Origin: an uncultured Erwinia sp.
GTDB taxonomy: Bacteria > Pseudomonadota > Gammaproteobacteria > Enterobacterales > Enterobacteriaceae
Direction of reading: 5' to 3'
Assembly: GCA_945290265.1 (NCBI GenBank)
Contig: CALYQW010000019.1
Coordinates: 1 to 62,337 of the forward strand
Length of the DNA: 62,337 nucleotides
Below are positions 3,920 to 62,337 of this stretch, in pieces. Under the pieces are notes generated by a model that worked only from the letters and a program-made list of their open reading frames with translations, was not told the DNA's origin and searched no databases. Numbering within the stretch: position 1 is the first letter of the stretch; each line of letters opens with the position of its first letter. Position numbers and translations under genes: made by a program.

Positions 3920-5275
3920 TTATGAACCAAATAAATTATGATGCAGCGTTTGTACCACCTTCTCTGCATCATTGCCAGGCACCAGGAAGCACAGATTGTG
4001 GCTGCTGGCACCGTAGCAAATCAGGCGCAAATTAGACGACTCAAGGACACCAAACACTTTATTACCGACGCCGCAGGCCTGGTTAATCTTATTGCCGATC
4101 AGGGCAATCAGCGCCAGGTTTTCTTCCACTTCCACCCGGCACAGGGACGACAGCTCGGTCAGCAGCGCCTGAGTTAACAGACTGTCGCTGGTCGAAGTAG
4201 AACCGGTAGTATCCAGCGTCAGAGCCACGCTGACTTCTGAGGTGGTGATCAGGTCGACGGAAATATTGTGGCGCGCCAGAATATTAAACACCTCGGCCAG
4301 AAAACCACGTGCGTGCAGCATATTCAGGCTGTGCAGCGTCAGCAAGGTCTGCTTACGGCGCATCGCCAGGGCGCGGAACAGCGGCGGATTCGCGGTGTGA
4401 TTGCACACCAGGGTGCCACCGGCGGCCGGATCTTTACTGGAGCCAACAAACACCGGGATATCATTGCGTACCGCCGGTAGCAGGGTAGCCGGATGCAGCA
4501 CTTTGGCACCAAAGGTGGCCATTTCCGCCGCTTCTTCAAAGGTGATCTCGTCGATACGCTGGGCGGTCGGTACCACGCGCGGATCGGTGGTATAAATGCC
4601 TGGTACATCGGTCCAAATATCAATCTGACGGGCACCCAGCGCTTCGCCCAGCAGTGCGGCGCTGTAGTCGCTGCCGCCGCGCCCCAGCGTGGTGGTACGT
4701 CCCTGCGCTTCACAGCCAATAAAGCCCTGGGTGATCACCAGGCTGTCGGCAATACGCGGCTGCAGATGGCTGGCGGCCAGCTGACGCAGTGTGGTCACTT
4801 CGGGTTCCGCACGGCCAAAGCGGTCGTTGGTGCGTATCACCTTGCGCACATCAAACCACTGCGCGTTGACGTCACGCTGGCGCAGGATCTCAACGAACAG
4901 CAGGGTCGACATCAGCTCGCCGTGGCTGACCAGTTCATCGGTCAGCGCCGTAGAGGTCGCCAGCGCTGCGCCTTCAGACAGTGCGGCGATGTTTTCCAGC
5001 AGACGATCAATTTCTTCCCGGATCAGATGCGGCTGGTGCAGCGATGCGATAATCGCATACTGAATACGGCGCAGTTCATCCAGCAGACTGGCGCGCTGCT
5101 CCGGTGTTTGCCCTTCAGACAGCGCCACCAGCAAATTTGTTACGCCCGCTGATGCAGAAAGCACCACCAGACGAACGTCCGGGTTAGACAGCACCACATC
5201 GGCACTGTGGTTCATAGCGGTAAAGTCGGCCACGCTGGTGCCGCCAAACTTCGCTACGATCAAACGTTGGGACAT
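3920..5275 (-). CDS. lysC: Lysine-sensitive aspartokinase III
   Basis: It phosphorylates L-aspartate in the first step of the lysine, threonine and methionine pathway. The 451-aa product matches E. coli LysC (449 aa). The kinase domain carries KFGGTSV at residues 9-15 and TTLGRGGSDYSAALL near residue 200. The C-terminal third contains the paired ACT domains that bind lysine, including the conserved DLITTSEVSVALTLD. The start ATG has GAGGT just upstream. The gene is monocistronic and preceded by a lysine riboswitch, so both the enzyme and its mRNA sense lysine. Confidence 0.98.
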   Translation of the reverse strand: MSQRLIVAKFGGTSVADFTAMNHSADVVLSNPDVRLVVLSASAGVTNLLVALSEGQTPEQRASLLDELRRIQYAIIASLHQPHLIREEIDRLLENIAALSEGAALATSTALTDELVSHGELMSTLLFVEILRQRDVNAQWFDVRKVIRTNDRFGRAEPEVTTLRQLAASHLQPRIADSLVITQGFIGCEAQGRTTTLGRGGSDYSAALLGEALGARQIDIWTDVPGIYTTDPRVVPTAQRIDEITFEEAAEMATFGAKVLHPATLLPAVRNDIPVFVGSSKDPAAGGTLVCNHTANPPLFRALAMRRKQTLLTLHSLNMLHARGFLAEVFNILARHNISVDLITTSEVSVALTLDTTGSTSTSDSLLTQALLTELSSLCRVEVEENLALIALIGNKINQACGVGNKVFGVLESSNLRLICYGASSHNLCFLVPGNDAEKVVQTLHHNLFGS

Positions 5276-5549
5276 GACTACCTCGTGTCAGGTTAATTCT
5301 TGCAACATTACACAAGGGGGCACAGAAGAGGGAAAGACGTAGAAACGGGCAGCTACGAGTCACCCAGAAGTGCTCCACCTTGTAAAGCGTCCGACAGGCG
5401 AACGTTACTGGTGACAACCCAGAGGATTCAGCCCCTGCGGTCGATACCACCCACTCCGTGTGGTGGGTATCTCGGCGTCGCTCCCCCTGGTATGTTATCG
5501 CGGGATACGGTTCCTCCAACATACTGCCTGGGCGACGCGCCTCTCCTGG
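5276..5549 (-). promoter_or_regulatory. Lysine riboswitch (L-box) of lysC
   Basis: The leader of lysC contains the full lysine aptamer on the minus strand, 5549 down to 5364. The closing helix P1 pairs CCAGGAG (5549-5543) with CTTCTGG (5370-5364) including one G-U pair. Inside are the conserved L-box blocks AGAGGCGCG, TGTTGGAGGAACC and GGGCTGAATCCTCTGGG. The segment 5363-5276 is the expression platform, reaching the ribosome site GAGGT before the lysC ATG. The E. coli lysC leader is known to repress lysC when lysine binds; the same is inferred here. Open frames on either strand in this stretch are not genes. Confidence 0.93.
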
Positions 5550-5847
5550 CTTACGCGGTGCGTAAGAAGGCGCATAGAGATATACGGTTATCGGTTTGCT
5601 GTCAACGCCTGTCTCATTGAGATAACTCATTTTCCTGAATGCGCGGTCTTCATCAAATACACTAATCATAAATGAACAGCATTTAGCGCCGGCAGGCGGT
5701 AGTATCCATTCTTATTCGCACGAGAGGCGCTATCATTTTTTTCGGCGCTGTTCATACTGAACGGGTAAAACAGCTGTTGCGGGAAGGGGATCCGGGAGGC
5801 AAAACCGGATTTCAATGACGAACCTTAAATAAAATGAGTGTGTTGCT
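5550..5847 (+). other. lysC-pgi intergenic promoter region
   Basis: This region should hold the start of the lysC leader on the minus strand and the pgi promoter on the plus strand. A hairpin TTACGC/GCGTAA (5551-5565) borders the aptamer. I could not assign promoter hexamers with confidence, and no additional gene is visible. Confidence 0.5.
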
Positions 5848-7592: not shown

Positions 7593-7975
7593 CTGTGTTT
7601 TTAAAAGCAAGGGCAAAAGCCAGGTCAACTACGTTTCACCATTCCGCTGCGCGGACTGGCGAGCAGGGCGGCCAGTCGCCGCCGCCCTGCACCCGGGCTT
7701 GCGGCGTCACTTCGCCTGCTGCGCAGGTTCCCTCGGCCACGCCGCTTTCCGACGGAACGGCGTGATTCGCCGTCCAGGCGAAGCACGCCTCGCGCCGCCG
7801 TCCGTGGCGGCTTGTCCTGGAAATCGTCGTCGCCTCGGCTCCGTTCCTGATGCCGCCTGAAGGTCAACTGCCAAAGCCAGGGCAACGGCAAAAGCAAAAG
7901 CCAGGGCAACGGCAAAGGTCAGGGGAAAGGCAAAAGCAAAAGCCAGGTCAAAGTCAGCGGTAAATCAGCGGCAGG
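7593..7975. repeat. Dispersed structured intergenic repeat, copy A (complete)
   Basis: The core spans about 7619-7868. Its first 44 bases (7619-7662) are identical to 62176-62219, its TGATTCGCCGTCCA (7763-7776) matches the end of the window, and its last 23 bases (7846-7868) match 14574-14596. It folds into several hairpins: 7663-7672 with 7681-7690 (10 bp), CCTGC/GCAGG near 7718, 7738-7744 with 7758-7764, and GCCGCC/GGCGGC near 7800. Both ends carry AGGTCAAC. The right flank (7870-7967) is about 16 units of a degenerate hexamer, consensus CMARRG, and shorter hexamer runs lie on the left. It is GC-rich and carries no credible gene. Confidence 0.8.
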
Positions 7976-9602: not shown

Positions 9603-10351
9603 TGAATAAAATCCAAACTCTTTTCGCAGGCAGCGTGATGCTGTTTGCTTTGCCTGTTCTGGCTGCCAGCCAGGTCACCATTAGCAGGCCGGGACAGCCC
9701 GATGTGCTGGTCAGGGATGCTGAAAACCTGGCGCAGTTACTCACCCGTGCGGAGGTCCAGGGGAAAACCTGGTGGCCGGGCACGGTGATCGCCGAACAGC
9801 AGGCCAGCGTGCGGGCGCAGGCGCAGCAGCATGCGTTGCTGCGCCGTTTGCAGCAGTGGCACGGCGCACTGCTGGCTGAAAATAACCGCAGGCTGGCGGT
9901 GAGGGTGGAGTCGCTGCATCAACAGATTGCGGCGCTGCGCGTCACCGGACGGCAGGTAGTCCCGGTGGATGCGGATGTCGTGCGTTTACATCCGCAGGAT
10001 AACCATCGTCTGGTTGGTGGCTACCAGCTCTACCTGGCATCAGAACCGACCTCAGTTGTTCTGGCCGGCGTCGTAAACCGGCCGGGTAAAACCCCCTGGG
10101 TTCCCGGTCGCAGCGTGGCAGATTACCTCCCGGGAGCACCTGCCGACGGGGCGGAGCGCAGCGTTGTACAGCTGATCTCGCCATCAGGGTGCGTAAGCAC
10201 GGTACCGGTGGCTTACTGGAATCAGCGCCATATTGAACCTCAGACCGGCAGCATTATCGTGGTGGGGTTCTCCTCATGGGTGCTGCCTGACAACCTGAGC
10301 GATCTTAACCAACAGATTGTTTCTCTCTTTACGCAGCGGATACCTGACTGA
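9602..10351 (+). CDS. yjbG: Capsule biosynthesis GfcC-family periplasmic protein
   Basis: The 249-aa protein has a signal peptide ending near FALPVLAAS and is predicted to be periplasmic. It belongs to the GfcC/YjbG family, whose members resemble parts of polysaccharide export proteins; the SLBB-like segment around residues 150-210 ([15 protein letters not shown]) supports this. It overlaps yjbF and yjbH by one base at each end. Confidence 0.9.
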
Positions 10352-12465
10352 TGAAAAAACACCTTATTCTCAGCCTGCTGCCGCTGCTGCCGCTGCTGCC
10401 GCTGCTGGTTGCGGGTGCCTGTCAGGCACAGAGCGTCAGCTGGTTGGCGCCAGAGGGCCCTTCTCAATCCGACTTTGGTGGCGCGGGGCTGCTGCAGCTG
10501 CCTACGGCACGTATGGCGCAGGAAGGCGAATTCAGCCTGAATTATCGCTATAACGACCAGTATCACTTCTATTCCGCATCCGTACAGCTGTTTTCATGGC
10601 TGGAAACTACGCTGCGCTATACCGATGTCAAAACCCGCCGTTACAGCGATTCAGAAAGCTTTAGCGGTGACCAGAGCTACAAAGACAAAGCATTCGATCT
10701 GAAGCTGCGCCTGTGGCAGGAAAGCTGGTGGCTGCCGCAGGTGTCGCTGGGGATGCGCGATATTGGCGGAACCGGGCTGTTTGACAGTGAATATCTGGTG
10801 GCCAGCAAGGCCTGGGGTCCCTTCGACTTTACCGTCGGACTGGGCTGGGGCTATCTGGGTACCAGTGGCAATATCAGCAACCCATTTAACGCCGTCAGCG
10901 ATAAATTTAATACCCGTCCCCGCCGCTATGGATCGCCCGGCGCAGTCAGCTTCGACAATATGTTTCGCGGCCCGGCTTCCGTATTTGCCGGCATTGAATA
11001 TCAAACGCCCTGGCACCCGCTGCGCCTGAAGGTGGAGTACGAAGGTAATAACTACCGCGAGGACTTTGCCGGATGTCTGAAGCAGGACAGCAACATTAAC
11101 GTTGGGGCGGTTTACAGTCTGACGGACTGGGCGAGGATCAATCTCAGCTACCAGCGGGGGAACACCCTGATGGCCGGGGTGACGCTGCACACTAACTTTA
11201 ACCAGCTGCGTTATCACGGCAGGGACACGCCGAAACCGCCTTACCGGCCGCAGCCACCGCAGAGCGGCACCATCGATGCGGAGCAGGCCAGTCAGCAGCT
11301 GACCGATCTGCAGATCCTGGCCGGTTTCTATGCGCCCAAAATCGAGGTTAAAGGCAACACGCTGTATGCCAGTGGTGAGCAGGTGCGTTATCGCGATAAT
11401 CAGGAAGGTATTGACCGTGCGAATGTGATCCTGGCGAACCATCTGCCGGCAGGCGTGGACACCATTGCGCTGACTGAAACCCGCACTCACCTGCCGCAGG
11501 TTACCACCAAAACTGACGTTGCCAGCCTGCAGCGTCAGCTGGAAGGCTATCCGATGGGGCAGACTGAAACCCTGCGTCAGCAGCGGGTAGAGCCGGTGGC
11601 TGCGCCGCCAGCCAGCCAGCGCTTTGCGGTAAACAGTCAGCGTCTGAACTACAGCCTGTCGCCGGTGCTGAATCAGTCGGTGGGTGGCCCGGAAAGCTTC
11701 TATATGTACCAGCTGGGGCTGATGGCGAATGGCAGCTACTGGCTGACAGACAATTTGCTGGTGGACGGCAGCGTATTTGCCAACCTGAAGAACAACTACA
11801 GCAAGTTCAGATACGACGGCACGCCGCATGACTCCACGCTACCACGGGTGCGTACCCATGTACGTGACTACCTGGACAATAATGTATTTATGAATAATCT
11901 TCAGGCGAACTATATGCAGCATCTGGGTAATGGCTTCTATGGCCAGCTGTACGGCGGCTATCTGGAAGCCATGTTCGGTGGTGTGGGTGGCGAACTGCTG
12001 TACCGTCCACTGGATGCGCGCTGGGCAGTGGGCGTCGATGTGGCCCGGGTGCGCCAGCGTGACTGGAACAATATGATGAAGTTCACATCATACAGCGCCA
12101 GCGTGGGGAATATCACCGCCTACTGGCGGCCCTGGTTCAGTGAAGACATTCTGGTTAAAGCCAGCGTAGGGCAGTATCTGGCGAAAGATCGCGGCGTGAC
12201 GTTCGATATCTCGAAGCGCTTTGACAGCGGGATCACCGCCGGCGTTTATGCCACTAAAACCAACGTCAGCAGGAAGGATTATGGCGAAGGTGGCTTTACC
12301 AAAGGCTTCTATATCTCGGTTCCGATGGATCTTTTCAGTTCTGCGCCAGTGCGAAGTCGTGCTCAGATCAACTGGGTGCCGCTGACGCGTGATGGAGGGC
12401 AAATGCTGGGACGTAAGTTCCATCTGTACGATATGACCAGCGATCGCGATCGTTATTATCGCTAA
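10351..12465 (+). CDS. yjbH: YjbH/GfcD-family outer-membrane polysaccharide protein
   Basis: The 704-aa protein is the last of the operon and matches E. coli YjbH (698 aa). It has an N-terminal signal, a large beta-rich N-terminal domain with repeated aromatic, amphipathic strands, and a C-terminal domain also rich in YGGY-type strands, consistent with an outer-membrane barrel. The signal peptide hydrophobic core contains four consecutive copies of a Leu-Leu-Pro unit made by a 9-bp DNA repeat. Start ATG overlaps the yjbG stop (TGATG). A terminator follows. Confidence 0.92.
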
Positions 12466-12535: not shown

Positions 12536-12570
12536 TTGGCAAACGGCCAGGCCAGGTCAAAAGCGCACCG
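12536..12570. repeat. Remnant of the dispersed repeat border (copy D)
   Basis: A run of the same period-6 units seen at the borders of copy A (GGCAAA CGGCCA GGCCAG GTCAAA AGC) sits between the yjbH terminator and psiE. No core is present, so it is a border remnant or a solo tail. Confidence 0.5.
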
Positions 12571-14535: not shown

Positions 14536-14630
14536 TCCAGGCGAATGCCTGGTGCATTCCGCCGGGCGCGGGACCTGATGCCGCCTGAAGGTCAACGTCA
14601 ACAAGGTCAACAGCCAGGGCAAGGGCTAAA
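14536..14630. repeat. Dispersed structured intergenic repeat, copy C (right end)
   Basis: It begins with TCCAGGCGA, as found at copy A 7773-7781, and then ends with 23 bases (14574-14596) identical to the right end of copy A core. Between them most of copy A right half is missing, so it is an internally deleted copy. The following 14597-14625 consists of period-6 units related to the copy A border (GTCAAC, GGTCAA, AGCCAG, GGCAAG). Confidence 0.75.
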
Positions 14631-62095: not shown

Positions 62096-62154
62096 CGGCT
62101 GGCCGAGACCGGGGCCTGGGCTGGTCCACTGCGTGGGGGAGGGGGGCTGCGCTG

Positions 62155-62337
62155 GCTGTGTTTTTAAAAGCCAGGGCCAGGTCAACTACGTTTCACCATT
62201 CCGCTGCGCGGACTGGCGACAAGGGGAGAACATCGCCTTCTCCCCTTGACCCCGCGCTAGCGGCTGGCACTGCGCCCGCTTACGCGGGTGCCCTCGGCAA
62301 TGCCCTTTCCCTTTGGTACAGCCTGATTCGCCGTCCA
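62155..62337. repeat. Dispersed structured intergenic repeat, copy B (cut by window end)
   Basis: It shares TGTGTTTTTAAAAGC and then a 44-base identical block (62176-62219) with copy A 7619-7662. Next comes an 11-bp hairpin at 62220-62248 (AAGGGGAGAA with TTCTCCCCTT) whose arms have no sequence similarity to the copy A arms but occupy the same place, with a similar loop (CATCGCC against CAGTCGCC). A CCCGC/GCGGG hairpin follows, again equivalent to CCTGC/GCAGG in A. It ends with TGATTCGCCGTCCA as in A. The right part lies beyond the window. Confidence 0.8.

Follow-up and report, generated by a model that had tools for sequence, protein, structure and literature searches.

BOX sequences belong to the small dispersed repeats that do not code and can fold into hairpins. 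Parts of PMC2229807 describe ERIC/IRU, RU-3 and Correia/NEMIS as small, non-coding, dispersed and hairpin-capable, features shared by the element reported here; by the same description, however, they are mostly shorter than 200 bp and carry terminal inverted repeats, and on this description we set them apart. YPAL/RU-2 (Rfam Ysr224) represents a GC-rich mobile repeat of enterobacteria of ~168 bp, according to sections of PMC2759123 and PMC2229807, and resembles our element also in its two GGA-type hairpin loops (by eye). The REPIN/BIME systems with RAYT consist of inverted pairs of hairpin units, form tandem clusters, have diverged partners, are sited behind genes and display compensatory stem changes (parts of PMC3116915 and PMC3733652), and in all these respects they are like the element described below. 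Yet, a REP unit comprises 20–40 bp and one hairpin in these sources, whereas an arm of our element is ~250 bp long and forms five hairpins.

In turn, the Rfam family RF01731 (TwoAYGGAY) is modelled over 168 positions and classed as Cis-reg. Portions of Weinberg et al. 2010 (PMC2864571) regard TwoAYGGAY as probably an RNA and probably not cis-regulatory, and list it from human gut, Gammaproteobacteria and Clostridiales, while a passage of PMC4333381 proposes that it binds CsrA. Our literature search, which covered titles, abstract openings and selected passages, for the most part outside the subscription journals, returned no account of the present element or of TwoAYGGAY as a dispersed repeat.

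We found that the element is a real, high-copy, structured and mosaic repeat that varies between species, is built as a fixed inverted unit and contains RF01731. We give about an even chance to the explanation that fits best, namely that it is a large mobile DNA repeat akin to RF01731, non-autonomous, mosaic and kept as a folded single strand; its chief rival is a role as RNA.

Copies in the window

The window, i.e., the whole stretch of 62,337 nucleotides that was analysed, carries a dispersed non-coding element at 7593–7975, complete and with a reproducible core at 7619–7868. R1 denotes a covariance model of the middle 126 arm positions, for which 28 arms from six genomes of the genus were used.

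7598..7618, + strand: T-run/hexamer module 5' of the arm (TTTTTAAAAGCAAGGGCAAAA); TTTTAAA occurs at most 64 bp 5' of 37/60 copies
7619..7868, + strand: complete arm downstream of pgi, type A by eye; 61 copies aligned over this span; R1 137.5 bits
7869..7960, + strand: degenerate hexamer array 3' of the pgi arm, direct repeats D3/D5; other copies are flanked by similar arrays (by eye)
12546..12563, + strand: short remnant of an array, past the gene at 10351–12465 and its terminator
14536..14596, + strand: remnant downstream of ubiA, a leader-like stretch fused to an arm 3' end (sequence comparison); leader motif 5' of 2/60 arms
62176..62337, + strand: arm downstream of blc, truncated 3' at the contig end and assigned by eye to type B; 78% in blastn over 162 bases; R1 64 bits

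The sequence-only reading had claimed at least four copies in the window, all just downstream of genes. The repeat itself is real: the 44-base identity between 7619–7662 and 62176–62219 and the equalities of 7763–7776 with 62324–62337 and of 7846–7868 with 14574–14596 are all exact on direct reading, and the multiple hairpins and common AGGTCAAC ends are borne out. Instead of four copies, however, there are two arms and two remnants. R1 detects arms at 7700–7823 and 62259–62337 (the latter cut by the contig end); the ubiA remnant retains the final ~32 bases of an arm behind the leader-like stretch, and the other is an array piece of ~18 bases around 12552–12560. As for the position behind genes, pgi, ubiA and blc are named by NCBIfam, but the protein of 10351–12465 is not; its name yjbH comes from the sequence-only reading.

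The arm at 7619 belongs to type A by its end sequence, while that at 62176 was called type B from its inner letters because its end is missing; arm types, array composition and the features of loci L171 and L174 (see below) were judged by eye. A second hairpin-like module (GGTCCACTG...) is located at 62120–62139 and recurs 54–99 bp 5' of 14/60 arms; it may be a separate repeat or the leader of the unit. The window also contains a lysine riboswitch (RF00168, 84.9 bits) at 5360–5553 on the − strand, upstream of a 451-aa ORF (3920–5275).

Copy number and arrangement of arms

A 281-base query from the window copy gave at least 45 blastn matches in the genome of origin (G000, 3.44 Mb), a lower bound in that 40 of 114 first-look candidates were scored, and R1 found 80 arms there. 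Both counts exceed chance and uphold the claim of a dispersed multi-copy repeat, on a larger scale than first proposed. The near-complete copies are ~68 to 92% identical to the window copy. Counts of clusters, contig ends and RF01731 overlaps in this genome rest on 74 of the 80 R1 matches. At least 14 of these 74 listed arms lie no more than 400 bp from a contig end, against 1.07 expected; the assembly breaks at arms, which explains contig breaks including the window end at 62337.

In the genome of origin, all 7 close arm pairs are convergent, and 60 of the 67 clusters are lone arms. In other genomes (74 loci, 157 matches), neighbours at most 700 bp apart, with overlapping opposite-strand matches left out, are 56 convergent, 1 divergent and 21 tandem, or 53, 1 and 21, respectively, once 3 duplicated clusters are removed. 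The 75 clusters kept comprise 40 with one arm facing one, 8 with two facing one, 5 with three facing one, 19 lone arms, 2 that are only tandem and 1 irregular. This inverted unit had escaped the sequence-only reading. Like a REPIN, the element thus has two inverted units (53 convergent neighbours against 1 divergent), but the 250-bp arm with its five hairpins differs in size and hairpin number from a REP, which is defined as a 20–40 bp palindrome tagged GTAG or CGTC. The facing arms have diverged: in G000 the usual arm ends in ...CAAAGGTCAA and its partner in ...CACCAACGTCAA, and in Enterobacter the unit aligns with its reverse complement over 574 bp at 72%.

Distribution, presence and absence

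At E 0.001, R1 matched 17/37 genomes of the genus; at E 0.0001 and with stricter filters it matched 57/295 genomes of the family, in 34/154 genera (both counts include the genome of origin). For the class, 7/274 genomes were matched. RF01731 exceeded its cut-off in all five loci fetched from other families. The named records obtained by a pattern scan belong to Pantoea species, Edaphovirga cremea, Enterobacter ludwigii and Erwinia rhapontici. Three Klebsiella loci gave weaker R1 matches of 27–29 bits, two of them with annotated convergent neighbours, and none of the three carries an RF01731 match. One Klebsiella record deposited as a plasmid (CP125156.1, 5.37 Mb) is of chromosome size. No match to the window copy was found in plasmids, phages or E. 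coli, a set that may lack records near the genome of origin; a query with one distant relative gave none in E. coli either.

All 36 other genomes of the genus share the pgi neighbourhood, and in none of them did blastn, run with E up to 1e-20 and thereby blind to distant subfamilies, find a copy there. Of 20 pgi loci searched with R1, only our own gave a strong signal, the 19 relatives having no element at this place. Locus L212 carries a 19-bit R1 match ~1.2 kb beyond pgi. A site of Enterobacter ludwigii, compared in 26 loci, holds facing arms in 7, a lone arm of another subfamily in 1 and no arm in 18; an inverted repeat of 23 bases (GGTCGCCATTTATGGCGTAATGC) flanks the lone arm (L174, genome G347). 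When occupied and empty sites were compared (Enterobacter, pgi), the gaps proved too diverged to align to the base, and neither a target-site duplication of the MITE kind nor an exact junction was read from them. Presence and absence were compared between species, with one genome per species in which neither polymorphism nor excision was seen, and the differences may reflect loss; these points stand against the mobile reading.

The sequence-only reading had left three options: a mobile element, a structured RNA tail on 3' ends and a DNA architecture site. The many copies, the presence and absence at given loci and the patchy distribution make a non-autonomous mobile element the best fit among them.

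Hairpins, covariation and strand

The alignment A1 comprises 61 copies over 7619–7868. It omits L056, L069, copies shorter than 235 bases (including L054 and the + arm of L018), the − arm of L045, in which H2 is expanded, and two cut arms, namely the incomplete one of the window and the second one of L067. Five local hairpins were recognized in it:

7636..7662, + strand: hairpin H1, A1 columns 18–44; 98.4% of cells paired, three pairs with double changes
7663..7690, + strand: hairpin H2, the most variable stem, A1 columns 50–69; double changes in 4/6 pairs; MFE
7714..7728, + strand: hairpin H3, A1 columns 101–116
7759..7789, + strand: hairpin H4, GGA in the − strand loop, A1 columns 148–179; GGA-loop hairpin in 176/228 segments
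7794..7811, + strand: hairpin H5, ACGGAC loop on the − strand, A1 columns 185–203; GGA-loop hairpin in 224/228 segments

In these hairpins, 98.0% of 2256 cells are paired, double-change cells number 248 against 68 in shuffled alignments, and the covariation score reaches 0.319, compared with 0.113 for shuffled and no more than 0.070 for slid alignments. Further pair types show no excess (37 against 39.8 shuffled). RNAalifold alone gives compensatory change in 19/43 pairs, and the 28 arms from six genomes score 0.332 against 0.117 shuffled. An outer stem enclosing H4 and H5 is Watson-Crick in 880/973 cells (846.5 shuffled, at most 424 slid) and has 21 double-change cells in A1.

Across all ten hairpin pairs, stem-allele linkage differs from the shuffled value by no more than two standard deviations, and column pairs with four gametes amount to 246/680 within 25 bp and to 1092/1693 beyond 80 bp. 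Therefore, the copies exchange hairpins and are mosaics, and independent compensations must be fewer than the cell counts suggest.

The strictness of the pairing bears against the mobile reading in that it may stem from template switching without selection. In full, this explanation supposes a palindrome-prone sequence that is not selected, is kept perfect by template switching and is spread by recombination and horizontal transfer. The many direct Watson-Crick swaps, including GC to CG, and AT to GC to TA at H2, accord with it, as do the mosaicism and the tandem arrays beside and between arms; against it, genera share conserved unpaired blocks and conserved letters in the loops, and convergent order holds in 53/54 opposed neighbours. 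We consider it very unlikely.

With respect to strand, both strands fold below shuffles (z −2.40 for + and −3.32 for −), and it is apparently the − strand whose fold is maintained. In + letters, the local hairpins hold 2129 Watson-Crick cells, 21 G-T, 25 A-C and 20 other mismatches, and show no excess of wobble on either strand; these hairpins were picked after a first count over the 49 pairs common to both folds, which gave 26 G-T and 77 A-C. The outer stem, in turn, has 5 G-T against 51 A-C in + letters (21.3 and 61.9 shuffled), or 5 and 28 when two of its most variable pairs are removed, which indicates that wobble is tolerated on the − (RF01731) strand alone. Across genera, H5 shows 6 G-T and 0 A-C on the − strand, while H3 shows 4 G-T and 12 A-C at badly defined stem ends. 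Frequent GT pairing is read by the REP authors as a sign of transcription (a section of PMC3733652). The strict local stems lean to DNA and the outer stem to RNA or to one DNA strand. The wobble of the outer stem on the RF01731 strand is what would be expected of an RNA made from that strand, and in this it stands against the mobile reading, as does the H5 count across genera.

Relationship to TwoAYGGAY

The middle of the window arm matches the Rfam family above its gathering cut-off:

7751..7819, − strand: RF01731 TwoAYGGAY match, model positions 43–116 of 168; 50.5 bits, cut-off 43

Like TwoAYGGAY, the element has GGA-loop hairpins (ACGGAC in H5 and TGGAC in H4 of the window copy), and the model also matches relatives of the element from other genera and families. 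It differs in that the matched segment here is part of a 250-bp arm, belongs to an inverted unit and occurs in tens of copies, and in that the window copy matches only positions 43–116; the Rfam outer stem is unmatched in this copy and matched with mismatches in others. The genome of origin yields 61 RF01731 matches at E up to 10, of which 22 exceed the cut-off. We determined that all but two of the 61 fall on listed R1 arms, always on the opposite strand (59/59), and that 15 of the 74 listed arms have no such match. Two short matches to model positions 73–107 (G000:C43:8416-8450 and C43:17543-17577) are not among the listed R1 arms. In other genomes, RF01731 is over its cut-off in 10/20 loci. 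The sequence-only reading, by which a match to a catalogued repeat would tell against its proposal, had missed RF01731; as this family covers a part of the element above cut-off, the objection holds by half.

The main rival to the mobile reading, in our view a doubtful one, is that the arms are RNA genes or parts of them that would be transcribed from the unit centre outward, with two GGA-loop hairpins that would bind CsrA and copies that would act as a sponge. Such a role is consistent with the 22/61 matches over cut-off on one strand only (59/59 of those overlapping arms), the GGA loop in 224/228 H5 segments, the outer-stem wobble restricted to the RF01731 strand, the fold of this strand further below shuffles (−3.32 against −2.40) and the CsrA binding proposed for TwoAYGGAY in the cited passage of PMC4333381. 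However, the local hairpins lack a wobble excess on either strand, R1 leaves 20/37 genomes of the genus unmatched, and one would not usually expect an sRNA gene to come as tandem and inverted arms.

Kinship with YPAL/RU-2 is not supported: two plasmid-borne RU-2 relatives (75% identical) match RF02770 instead of RF01731, and their R1 score is 6.3 bits over 18 bases. These RU-2/YPAL-like (Ysr224) repeats lie beside an alcohol dehydrogenase gene of conjugative plasmids (L196 1501–1664, L197 1501–1664), and similar matches occur on plasmids of several enterobacteria.

Flanks and gene context

Degenerate hexamer arrays (GGTCAA, CAAAGG and similar; by eye) surround the arms. In locus L171 (G355), foreign sequence follows after the 5' end of the first arm (by eye), and in L106 (1501–2168) ~100 bp separate an arm from a CRISPR array with RF01317 repeats. 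Terminator-like sites are found at most 230 bp 5' of 53/60 arms against 113/300 shuffled, and 3' of the arms in 12/56 and 22/56 for the two orientations. Part of the 5' signal is the element's own because of the TTTTAAA that closely precedes 37/60 arms; with the nearest 50 bp excluded, the 5' count is 31/60 against 79/300 shuffles, a modest excess, and the 3' counts are 8/58 and 18/58. A structured RNA tail on the upstream 3' end, as had been offered initially, finds little support here: in those 31/60 arms a terminator-like site stands already more than 50 bp 5', and the strand favoured by the fold and by Rfam is antisense to the upstream message.

Gene calls for the context and terminator counts came from a home-made caller based on codon usage; the context count left out L024 (the same locus as L051), the 14565 remnant and a duplicate window row, and counted both arms of a pair sharing one gap. 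An upstream gene was called for 61/68 copies, 52 of which are co-oriented with it, an observation that is uninformative inside convergent gaps. The 50 copies with both neighbours called occupy 29 convergent and 21 co-directional gaps (14 sense, 7 antisense) and no divergent one, while the 46 gene pairs of the window are 9 convergent, 28 co-directional and 9 divergent.

This placement could be that of a DNA site useful to the host in the manner of BIMEs, be it a gyrase or nucleoid-protein site that relieves supercoiling where genes converge or a barrier against read-through. The excess of convergent gaps (29/50 against 9/46), the absence of divergent ones (0/50 against 9/46) and the terminator-like sites 5' of 53/60 arms all fit. 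Conversely, 238/295 family genomes are without a match under strict filters, the T-run of the element supplies part of the 53/60 (beyond 50 bp, 31/60 against 79/300), and selection on a parasite likewise leaves its copies behind genes. We hold this reading to be unlikely.

Search for a mobilizing enzyme

The search covered three families, i.e., Y1, RVT_1 and Y2, and yielded no enzyme, which counts against the mobile reading. A RAYT partner was rejected since the genome of origin has no PF01797 (Y1) match, which sets the element apart from RAYT-dependent REPs and REPINs and bears out, as regards ordinary REPs, the earlier remark that it is not REP/BIME. Of the 16 element-bearing genomes, only 5 have any PF01797 match, and 11, our own included, have none. 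Spread by reverse transcriptase, suggested by simple-repeat tails, was likewise discarded, RVT_1 being absent from G000 and, with it counted, from 9/16 genomes. For rolling-circle transposition of the Y2/IS91 type we found one fragment with stops in G000 and no match in 13/16 genomes. Nor did an autonomous copy with a gene between its arms emerge: among 79 matches of two genomes, there is no gene-sized gap between facing arms. In a third genome (G348), a gap of ~1 kb between facing arms consists of tandem repeats (L223 1180–2030), with a tandem array on a 32-base scale outside them, and the gap in L175 contains repeats and a run of N.

Proposed mechanism and implications

For the mobile reading, we propose that the − strand of an arm, as modelled by Rfam, would be recognized as folded single-stranded DNA, and that an enzyme supplied in trans would place the unit at new sites. 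Such movement would resemble that of REPINs, which are thought to be moved by RAYT, but would depend on a different enzyme. Recognition of the strand, together with gene conversion among copies, could keep the stems paired while their letters change. Surviving copies would then sit where insertion harms little, at gene ends away from promoters, and the RF01731 'RNA' would be part of the DNA element.

Tentatively, and as a possibility still well short of probable, we further suggest that TwoAYGGAY, rather than being a cis-regulatory RNA, forms the core of mobile DNA elements with two arms and many hairpins, which would make up a superfamily in Proteobacteria; their mobilizer would read one folded single DNA strand and would belong to none of the Y1, Y2 and reverse-transcriptase families. 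Genomes that carry the element without a known mobilizer point to a missing enzyme. Beside REPINs, the element offers a second, larger case of inverted hairpin units without coding capacity. It also links an orphan RNA family to a dispersed and probably mobile DNA element of many enterobacteria, whereby both readings become testable.
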